IMG/VR virus record: IMGVR_UViG_3300012208_000004
Location: 1-64,000 of that record
Strand: one strand, 5' to 3'
Source of the DNA: a virus
DNA: 64,000 nt
Part shown: piece by piece, positions 12,659-62,254 of the stretch
Numbering within the stretch: the first letter of the stretch is position 1
Layout of the letters: every line of letters starts with the position of its first letter
Notes under the pieces: model-generated
What the model was told of the DNA's origin: nothing
Seen by the model: only the letters and a program-made list of their open reading frames with translations
The model's database searches: none
Program-made: the position numbers and the translations under genes

Positions 12659-12673
12659 CCCCCTTGCAAGGTG
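12659..12673 (+). repeat. Palindromic repeat acting as ribosome site
   Basis: CCCCCTTGCAAGGTG lies in the 19-bp gap. Its right arm (AAGGTGAGAT) is the only SD-like sequence for ATG 12678, so this copy also works as the ribosome site of the next gene. Confidence 0.65.
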
Positions 12674-60255: not shown

Positions 60256-60308
60256 TGAGTAACTTAGAAACTTAGAACTTAGAAAAAACCTTAGAGTTAC
60301 AAAATTTC

Positions 60309-60512
60309 ACCCTGCAAGGGGGGTATGAGATGGCTTGTGTCCTTGTTCTAAGACTTTCTAAGTTCTTTCTAAGATAGAGTGATCGTGTTGTCCTTACAAA
60401 TATAGCTATATAACAACTTAGAAATATTTGAGCTTAGTTTTAAAAAAATAAATATTTTCTAAGTTCTAAGTTTCTAAGTTACTATAGGGATACCCTACCC
60501 CCCTGCATGGGG
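60309..60512 (+). repeat. Two palindromic repeats in the origin region
   Basis: CCCTGCAAGGGGGG (about 60310-60323) and CCCCCCTGCATGGGG (about 60498-60512), both diverged in the centre, flank the inverted part of the iteron array. Confidence 0.6.
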
Positions 60513-60593
60513 TATGCATGCATTAGATACATTGACGATTTCTAAATTTTCTAAGTTATTCTAGGTTTTTTATTGTTTATGAATACTATCCGA

Positions 60594-60607
60594 CATTTTG
60601 CAAAATG
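60594..60607 (+). promoter_or_regulatory. Second copy of palindrome CATTTTGCAAAATG
   Basis: Identical to 8775-8788. It lies between the iteron array and the split tRNA. Confidence 0.45.
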
Positions 60608-60664
60608 CTCAATACAGGTAGAACAGTTGCAACATATTTATTGATGTGCTACGTTTTCACTATC

Positions 60665-60704
60665 GTTCCCGTAGCTCAGTGGATAGAGCACCGGTCTCCG
60701 GAAC
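60665..60704 (+). tRNA. 5' half of a tRNA-Arg(CCG) gene
   Basis: Acceptor strand GTTCCCG (60665-60671), complete D arm (GCTC...GAGC, 60674-60689), anticodon strand CCGGT (60691-60695) and loop CTCCGGA (60696-60702). After 60704 the match to a tRNA stops. The missing half is present 80 nt away on the other strand. As it stands it cannot give a tRNA. Confidence 0.8.
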
Positions 60705-60827
60705 TTCGGGCAACCTAATATGTGTGTCTGGCAAACAAATATCCAAGATTTAGGGCTTGTAAACACTGCTTTTGAGCTCAAGTGTTCCCGACTGGAATCG
60801 AACCAGCGCACCCGGTTCCGGAGACCG
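60692..60827. repeat. 13-bp inverted repeat spanning the anticodon loop
   Basis: CGGTCTCCGGAAC (60692-60704) and its exact reverse complement (60815-60827). The centre TCCGGA is itself a palindrome, so a recombinase using it as overlap could not tell orientation. Inverting the segment between the repeats would join the two tRNA halves into a full gene. The tyrosine recombinase gene is 79 bp away. Confidence 0.75.
60784..60827 (-). tRNA. 3' half of a tRNA-Arg(CCG) gene, inverted
   Basis: On the minus strand: anticodon loop CTCCGGA, stem ACCGG, short variable region, T arm (GCTGG TTCGATT CCAGT) and acceptor strand CGGGAAC ending at 60784, followed by A as discriminator. No CCA is encoded. It pairs perfectly with the 5' half at 60665-60704: acceptor 7/7 and anticodon stem 5/5. 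It also looks like a typical attP tRNA segment beside an integrase gene. Confidence 0.8.
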
Positions 60828-60861
60828 CGAAAATATTTGTACAGCTTCACAAGCTGATCTA

Positions 60862-60876
60862 CCCCCTTGCAAGGTG
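60862..60876 (+). repeat. Palindromic repeat before integrase 2
   Basis: CCCCCTTGCAAGGTG, followed at once by the left arm (60876-60889) of the inverted repeat that brackets the recombinase and HTH genes. Confidence 0.7.
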
Positions 60877-60905
60877 ACGCTCAAACAAATGAAAGGTGAC
60901 CATGG

Positions 60906-62006
60906 ATGGCAAAGAATGTCAGGAAGATAAAAAAGCGTGAGGAGTCAGATGGTTTCTTAGTCCAGGAGGTCATTCAAGAATATTTAGTATCTCCTCACGT
61001 CAAAAATCTTAGTTCTCGTACTCAGGATGAATATCAACAGGAGTTAGGCGTCTTTTCTGATTGGTGTAAATGCCGTCAGATTGTCAATGAGAAGGGCAAG
61101 AGAACGGCTGTATTTGGTGAAGGTCTTATGCTTCACCAGATTGATCAATATAGCATTCAGCTCTTCTGTGAGCATCTTCAGGCTACCCACAAGCCGACAA
61201 AGAAAAGCCGATCTGAGATATCCAGTTACACGCTGGCTGGGTATGTCCGTGTGATTAAATCTTTCCTCAACTGGTGTCTGCTTGATCCTCAATATGGAAA
61301 TTACACAAGCTCGGCTGTTATCCAGCGAATTGAAAATCCGAAAGTGATAGAGACTATCATCGAAACCTTCTCTCCTGAGCAGATCCAGGCTTTATTTAAA
61401 GCGTGCGAGAAAGAAGAAAGCGAACATCTCCAGCTACGCGATAAAGCTATCCTTGCTATCCTGCTCGATTGTGGATTACGCGCGACTGAATGTATCACGC
61501 TAACCATAGGAAATGTGTCATTAGATACAAAAGATGCATACGTTCGTGTTTTAGGCAAAGGCAATAAGTGGGGAGAAGTTGGACTTGGGGAGCAAGCACG
61601 TAAATATGTGCAGAAGTATATTCGCGTGTTTCGCATTCCAACAATAGAATACGCGGTACAACAAAAGCATAAAAACCTATCAGATCGTCAATGCAAACAA
61701 ATAAGCTTAGAGGTTGTACAGTCGTCTCTGGTGTTTGTGAATAGGTATGGAGAGCAGTTAACAAAATCAGGACTTTGGAGAATTATCACGCGTTTGTCAG
61801 ATTGGGCAAGGATTGAAGGTGTACGGTGCTCACCTCACACATTTCGTCATACGTACGCGAAAATGTTTATGCAGAATGGAGGTGATATTTACACGCTTTC
61901 AAAGCTCCTTAGACACAATTCAATTAAAACAACCGAAGACTATCTTAAATCTCTCCAGCAAAGTGAAGCAAGGAAAGGGGCCAAGTCAGTACTGGATAAT
62001 TTGTAG
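60906..62006 (+). CDS. int: Tyrosine recombinase 2 (integrase)
   Basis: A 366-residue protein. ATG 60906 has AAAGGTGA 6 nt upstream. A core-binding SAM-like domain (about 20-140) precedes the catalytic domain: Arg I in DCGLRATECI (about 192), Lys in GKGNKWGEV (about 221), HxxR in PHTFRHTYAKMF (about 312), RHNSIKTT and nucleophile Tyr in EDYLKSL (about 348). The His of the second basic pair is present. Location beside the split tRNA-Arg marks it as the enzyme acting at the attachment site. Confidence 0.85.
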   Translation: MAKNVRKIKKREESDGFLVQEVIQEYLVSPHVKNLSSRTQDEYQQELGVFSDWCKCRQIVNEKGKRTAVFGEGLMLHQIDQYSIQLFCEHLQATHKPTKKSRSEISSYTLAGYVRVIKSFLNWCLLDPQYGNYTSSAVIQRIENPKVIETIIETFSPEQIQALFKACEKEESEHLQLRDKAILAILLDCGLRATECITLTIGNVSLDTKDAYVRVLGKGNKWGEVGLGEQARKYVQKYIRVFRIPTIEYAVQQKHKNLSDRQCKQISLEVVQSSLVFVNRYGEQLTKSGLWRIITRLSDWARIEGVRCSPHTFRHTYAKMFMQNGGDIYTLSKLLRHNSIKTTEDYLKSLQQSEARKGAKSVLDNL

Positions 62007-62011
62007 CACTA

Positions 62012-62040
62012 TTGTGTATTTACCATAAAAGTGGTATACT
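62012..62040 (+). promoter_or_regulatory. Promoter of the HTH gene
   Basis: TTGTGT (62012-62017), 17 bp, TATACT (62035-62040). It gives the HTH gene expression independent of the integrase gene. Confidence 0.6.
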
Positions 62041-62071
62041 TTCAAAAGTATTCATAAGGATGGTGTTACGC

Positions 62072-62254
62072 ATGCCTGATGCATCTAATGTTTCGTGTTT
62101 CATGACAGTGAAGGAAGTATCTCAGCATTTACGGTTGACTGAGAGGACGATTTACACCATGCTTGAAAATGGTGTCATTCCAGGTGTTCAGATTGGGCGC
62201 GTGTGGCGTATTGATCGTGAGCAGTTGGATCAAAAGTTGAGAGGGCAAAAGTAG
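62072..62254 (+). CDS. Excisionase-like HTH protein next to integrase
   Basis: A 60-residue protein. ATG 62072 lies about 8 nt after AAGGATGG. CFMTVKEVSQHLRLTERTIY then MLENGVIPGVQIGRVWRIDR is the classic HTH_17 excisionase pattern. It follows integrase 2 with its own promoter, the usual arrangement for a directionality factor. Confidence 0.75.
   Translation: MPDASNVSCFMTVKEVSQHLRLTERTIYTMLENGVIPGVQIGRVWRIDREQLDQKLRGQK

Follow-up and report, generated by a model that had tools for sequence, protein, structure and literature searches.

Why would a phage carry both halves of one tRNA gene, in opposite orientations, beside its integrase? The 64,000-nucleotide stretch analysed here (the window) belongs to a 64,555-base virus record, is a tailed-phage genome and encodes a terminase, portal, major head protein, scaffold, tape measure, endolysin and helicase. 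Within it, the two halves of a tRNA-Arg(CCG) gene oppose each other across a spacer, the 5′ half on the plus strand and the 3′ half on the minus strand, with the following features in and around them.

60627-60655, plus: sigma70-like promoter, TTGCAA - 17 bp - TACGTT with TG at the extended -10, upstream of the tRNA 5′ half
60665-60704, plus: tRNA-Arg(CCG) 5′ half (acceptor 5′ strand, D arm, anticodon 5′ stem and loop)
60692-60704, plus: left arm of a 13-bp inverted repeat, an exact match to 60815-60827
60696-60702, plus: site A, loop/overlap CTCCGGA, 7/7 identical to site B; loop boundary inferred from prophage junctions
60709-60720, plus: direct repeat GGCAACCTAATA, with a 21-bp spacing conserved in several relatives
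60730-60741, plus: direct repeat GGCAAACAAATA, 21 bp from GGCAACCTAATA
60784-60827, minus: tRNA-Arg(CCG) 3′ half, the functional attP core plus tRNA remainder, a role taken from prophage junctions of relatives
60815-60827, minus: right arm of the 13-bp inverted repeat, an exact match to 60692-60704
60817-60823, minus: site B, loop/overlap CTCCGGA on the minus strand, the putative strand-exchange region
60865-60874, no strand assigned: palindrome CCTTGCAAGG between attP and int, one of 21 copies in the window
60880-60891, plus: int-side copy of the repeat, CTCAAACAAATG, seen in the sequence and aligned among relatives
60906-62006, plus: int, a tyrosine recombinase (integrase) of 366 aa, Xer/IntI-like (Pfam Phage_integrase, 2.4e-29; PHROG integrase)
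62012-62254, plus: HTH_17/excisionase-like protein

An earlier, sequence-only reading of this DNA had placed the halves at these coordinates, with an exact 13-bp inverted repeat, and both were reproduced here. Its claim that together they form one tRNA also held: joined in silico at the loop, the halves scored as tRNA-Arg(CCG) in ARAGORN, and the joined 72-mer agreed at 72/72 positions with the tRNA-Arg(CCG) genes present in Dictyobacter kobayashii and D. aurantiacus. ARAGORN detected no intact tRNA over the whole window, and an Rfam search of 60400-61000 returned no match. The tyrosine recombinase gene, correctly reported as lying close by, begins at 60906, 78 bp past the 3′ half.

Recurrence of the split tRNA among viruses and bacterial genomes

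Homologous integrases are accompanied by split inverted halves in 12 virus contigs, counting the window, and in four bacterial prophages or islands. All 12 contigs share the order promoter region, tRNA 5′ half (plus), spacer, 3′ half (minus) and int (plus), and a thirteenth, L004, begins at its own 3′ half. Seven tRNAs are represented over the 16 members (Arg CCG, TCT, TCG and GCG, Thr TGT, Gly TCC and Leu TAA), with the contigs distributed as follows.

Arg-CCG: window, L003, L005, L006, L007
Arg-TCT: L002
Arg-TCG: L021
Arg-GCG: L022, L023, L024
Gly-TCC: L150
Leu-TAA: L158

To either side of the site, the gene order in L021 is that of the window (helicase-DUF3987-att-int-HTH), which identifies the site as the phage form rather than a prophage end. 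Two tRNA fragments could also have been fused by an artefact, either of assembly, an alternative listed in the sequence-only reading, or of amplification. Short inverted repeats are able to generate such chimeric junctions, but 12 independent contigs that differ in their tRNAs repeat the layout, as do the finished genomes of D. kobayashii and brp13 (complete), a recurrence that excludes a chimera with near certainty.

In a set of 400 Chloroflexota genomes, integrases of the closest class (E below 1e-150) were confined to the four with integrated copies, and isolated phages and plasmids yielded only distant Xer-like matches of 23-30% identity. A pattern search for split inverted halves across 2.9 million viral contigs gave 74 matches, 67 of which had at least one half within an intact tRNA; among the remaining seven, the genuine cases were family members only (L024, L081, which equals L002, and L093, which equals L022). 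Halves were absent from L156, L157 and L025.

Both halves derive from the same tRNA

Across the 16 members (12 contigs and four integrated copies), acceptor and anticodon-stem pairing was kept between a member's own halves at 183/192 pairs, against a mean of 131 and a maximum of 161 when halves were re-paired between members (20,000 permutations; p = 5e-5). ARAGORN likewise accepted 16/16 own pairs as tRNAs versus 52/182 swaps between different tRNAs. Both halves always come from the same tRNA in all 16 members, and this layout with cognate halves in 15 members besides the window excludes chance.

The halves also change together. The tree places L002 as sister to the window (97/92 support), and L003 branches next to this pair; the L002 integrase is 79% identical to that of the window, and L002 carries Arg-TCT in both halves. 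Alignment of the three contigs showed the promoter region, spacer repeats and int-side region to be homologous whilst the tRNA halves differ, meaning that both halves were replaced together inside existing flanks. This joint replacement, seen between L002 and the window and L003, bears on how integrases switch their target tRNA. We also considered a cassette swap of the entire block from 5′ half through spacer to 3′ half in L002, which was rejected because the L002 spacer is homologous to that of the window.

Integrated relatives and the working attachment site

Att junctions were located in the integrated relatives of D. kobayashii, brp13, G033 and G044, at the following positions.

D. kobayashii, 1433134-1433205, minus: intact tRNA
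D. kobayashii, 1432958-1433001, plus: inverted 5′ half
D. kobayashii, 1394291-1394333: displaced 3′ half, adjoined by int
brp13, 6886876-6886947: intact tRNA
brp13, 6887062-6887093: inverted 5′ half
brp13, 6938749-6938794: displaced 3′ half, int near
G033 (Arg), ~1456419: tRNA-Arg; int at 1394118
G044: tRNA-Thr(TGT), the two element ends lying on separate contigs

In all four, the tRNA consists of the host 5′ half and the phage 3′ half, and junction identity starts at the anticodon loop, which makes the 3′ half the working attP core. The restored tRNA lies at one end of the element and the displaced host 3′ half beside int at the other, whilst the phage's inverted 5′ half remains within the element, ~110-165 bp downstream of the restored tRNA. 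As read from these genomes, the junctions show that integrases of this family use site B to insert the element into a host tRNA gene at its anticodon loop. They agree with the earlier suggestion of an attachment site for the adjacent tyrosine recombinase with an anticodon-loop crossover, and the arrangement present is in essence its alternative, an attP that holds an additional tRNA 5′ half. For the window itself, the comparison makes it probable that a temperate siphovirus of Ktedonobacteria (soil bacteria) uses this site as its attP module.

A search of 47 Ktedonobacteria genomes for a tRNA followed by an inverted 5′ half recovered brp13, G033, G044 and one chance tRNA-Ser match, the gap of 162 in D. 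kobayashii being beyond the range of this search. The brp13 element includes a terminase. TIR/NB-ARC/TPR, NADAR and AAA/STAND-like genes lie in the D. kobayashii element (L009, L046), possibly a defence island and not a phage; a tandem second element with its own integrase (L009 / G001:C1 1384272-1394333) uses the same tRNA-Arg, and a further displaced 3′ half marks it. The geometry is reversed in a distant relative from D. aurantiacus (L011 / G003:C1 ~2461250-2477729), where int adjoins an Arg(CCT) 5′ half and the intact tRNA lies at the far end.

An invertible tRNA switch is improbable

The central proposal of the sequence-only reading was that the integrase may invert the segment between the repeats and so turn a tRNA on or off; as weighed here, Int/Xis would flip 60705-60814 and thereby toggle a phage tRNA-Arg. 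In the window, the overlap is 7/7 identical and palindromic and an excisionase-like gene follows int; as had been claimed, the gene would be restored if the segment flanked by the repeats were inverted, giving an ARAGORN-valid tRNA with a promoter. All 12 phage-form contigs and all four integrated copies, however, lacked an inverted state with an intact phage tRNA (0/16), the loops are mismatched in 6/16 members, and the acceptor or D stem is lost in at least three, leaving the 5′ half non-functional in several. The self-complementary core TCCGGA on which the proposal drew is indeed palindromic in the window, but is peculiar to Arg-CCG/TCG anticodons and does not occur in members with Thr, Gly, Leu or Arg-TCT tRNAs. 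The missing inverted state and the mismatched loops make a general tRNA switch unlikely, and we regard it as a very improbable account of the site; occasional inversion in the window itself is chemically plausible.

The two cores pair over 13 bp in the window and not at all in G033. A folded single-strand attP of the CTXphi or integron kind was rejected as a general mechanism because the cores pair well only in some members.

Conservation and decay of the inverted 5′ half

Between the window and D. kobayashii, the 5′ half is identical at 31/31 positions and the 3′ half at 40/40, whilst identity falls to 46% upstream, 34% in the spacer and 31% on the int side; on this alignment, the 5′ half is held to the tRNA sequence as its flanks diverge. 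Other members depart from this, the 5′ half having lost its acceptor strand in L003 and carrying a broken D stem in L006 and L007.

The 5′ half terminates at or inside the anticodon loop, and the site A loop agrees with site B to varying degrees. Agreement is full in the window, L021, L023 and L024 and reaches 5-6/7 in L002, L003, L007, L150 and G044, whilst six of the 16 members (L005, L006, L022, D. kobayashii, brp13 and G033) are mismatched and the L158 loop could not be scored with confidence. Most of the six mismatched members have a perfect 5′ half all the same, a combination that fits neither recombination at site A nor simple decay.

A sigma70-like promoter usually precedes the 5′ half, positioned as for a tRNA gene and directed at int. 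It is significant in L005, L006, L150, brp13, G033 and G044 and weak in the window (shuffle p 0.14), and no good promoter was found ahead of the 5′ half in L007 or L024. In L007, L024 and L158, the spacer contains a TATGGTATACTT-like extended -10 after rather than before the 5′ half, as if the int promoter had shifted to its other side. In the brp13 phage, the leader agrees with the leader and -10 of the tRNA in its own host. The spacers of the window, L002, L003, L005, L006, L024 and brp13 contain direct repeats at a 21-bp spacing, and the window pair (GGCAACCTAATA and GGCAAACAAATA) is a probable accessory-protein site, whilst five members have an intrinsic-terminator-like hairpin after the 3′ half.

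Proposed origin and role of the 5′ half

The explanation that we favour overall, with a probability of about 0.6, is an attP that acts through site B and has in addition captured a promoter for int together with a tRNA 5′ half. The arrangement would have originated in a phage that once carried the whole tRNA unit, through intramolecular attB × attP recombination, leaving an attL-like site (promoter-5′ half-core-repeats) facing an attR-like site (3′ half-core-int). As the integrated relatives show, strand exchange on integration takes place at site B, in the anticodon loop of the host tRNA gene; the host promoter and host 5′ half rebuild the tRNA with the phage 3′ half, and the inverted 5′ half stays in the element. 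It is an even call whether, in the circular phage, the captured tRNA promoter transcribes through the 5′ half and attP into int, a connection that integration at site B would sever.

Why the 5′ half stays cognate admits two tentative answers, to which we give equal and limited weight. It may serve as a back-up that renders recombination at site A harmless, with a tRNA formed from the phage 5′ half and the host 3′ half, or it may be homogenised with the host 5′ half, which it opposes as an inverted repeat in the lysogen. Template switching homogenises the arms of inverted repeats in other systems (PMC8604942, PMC7202029), but the spacer to be crossed here, ~150-200 bp, is longer than is usual for that process. 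Against the favoured explanation as a whole stand the weak window promoter and the want of a good one in L007 and L024, the A-loop mismatches and the decay of the 5′ half in L003, L006 and L007. Site A was used in 0/4 integrated copies.

If the 5′ half were instead a passive relic, cognate solely through gene conversion or template switching with the host 5′ half, only its promoter would be under selection, for int. The host-like leader of the brp13 phage fits this, as does the pair L005/L006, in which the 5′ half drifts at the rate of its flanks (84% vs 78-82% identity) whilst the 3′ half is 100% identical, and the process has the precedents cited above. However, D. kobayashii, G033 and G044 have leaders unlike those of their hosts, yet their 5′ halves are perfect, and the spacer is again long for template switching; we consider the relic a possibility of roughly one in three.

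Integration in both directions appears less probable still. Here, the Xer-like recombinase would use either core, B supplying a 3′ half and A a promoter and 5′ half, and since either orientation would leave a working tRNA, both halves would have to match the target. Consistent with this, promoter, 5′ half and core form a unit cognate in 16/16 members, the 5′ half was re-matched after the target switch in L002, and the distant D. aurantiacus relative does use the 5′-half side. The window integrase, with its first predicted helix at residue 19 and a SAM-like match from residue 31, appears to have little space for an N-terminal arm-binding domain of the kind that would impose direction and that marks lambda-type heterobivalent integrases, although its AlphaFold model is weak (mean pLDDT 63). 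The four integrated close relatives nevertheless all used B (4/4), the A overlap is mismatched in 6/16 members, and the 5′ halves of L003, L006 and L007 are decayed. We are similarly doubtful of a portable pre-split tRNA transcription unit, composed of a promoter and 5′ half facing the 3′ half and, in some members, a terminator, with which exchange at either facing core, in either orientation, would always leave the host with a working tRNA, the two halves being retuned together on each new tRNA.

Relation to known integration systems

The site resembles the tyrosine-integrase attP of Islander-type islands (PMC4383910) in its anticodon-loop crossover, in an attP that brings the 3′ half, and in element ends marked by an intact tRNA and a displaced fragment. 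The recombinase gene is adjacent and the 3′ tDNA fragment starts in the anticodon loop, as expected of an anticodon-loop attP, but where such sites hold a single tRNA fragment, this one also holds an inverted 5′ half. In the Islander catalogue, 3760 islands have 3′ tDNA fragments and 159 have 5′ fragments (159/3919), and its filters discard inverted fragments and 5′ fragments downstream of a tRNA (PMC4383910), so the signature of a split-tRNA attP would be missed. Like the islands with 5′ tDNA fragments, the present phages supply a promoter and 5′ half, and the D. aurantiacus relative (L011/G003) works in this way; unlike them, they carry both halves at once, and it was the 3′ half that served in the four close relatives seen integrated.

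Two further systems offer partial parallels. In tRNA-dependent lysogeny, the mycobacteriophages Fionnbharth and Gaia carry a complete phage tRNA gene and an attP core of ~10 bp (PMC10865867); there, as here, the phage bears the information, promoter included, for the tRNA that integration disrupts, whereas in the present family this information is divided over two halves, and the tRNA is reassembled where phage and host DNA join. A complete cognate phage tRNA was found neither in the window nor in the loci of its integrase relatives, L022 having only a tRNA-Met. In KplE1-type modules, the int promoter lies within the att region and stays next to int in the prophage (PMC2951348); att sequences are likewise intertwined with the int promoter here, but integration would take the promoter away from int.

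Our literature search, in which most subscription papers were beyond reach, found no description of an attP with both inverted tRNA halves, and its novelty is provisional. What emerges is a conserved attP design bearing both halves, of a kind removed by the filters of standard island finders. With a functional 5′ half, these phages would own a fail-safe integration module; if the 5′ half is not functional, it constitutes a natural record of host-to-phage sequence conversion.

Other repeats and related sequences

The 3′ half of a tRNA-Arg(CCG) in L008, a viral contig from an isolate genome that was not among the integrase relatives found, has a 21-nt junction in common with that of the window. 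The 21 window copies of the palindrome CCTTGCAAGG, against ~0.1 expected, include those at 12662, 18030, 23433, 60865 and 62290. They often lie immediately 5′ of genes and also occur in relatives, including between attP and int, and in this distribution the palindrome looks like a dispersed operator or 'stoperator'. An iteron-like array of TTCTAAGTT on both strands occupies 60260-60560, with the DUF3987 replication gene on one side and the att module on the other, and at the same position other contigs have repeats of GTATCCT (L002), TTTACAC (L021), GTAACGC (L022) and CTTTAGT (L023), a placement that suggests a replication origin.
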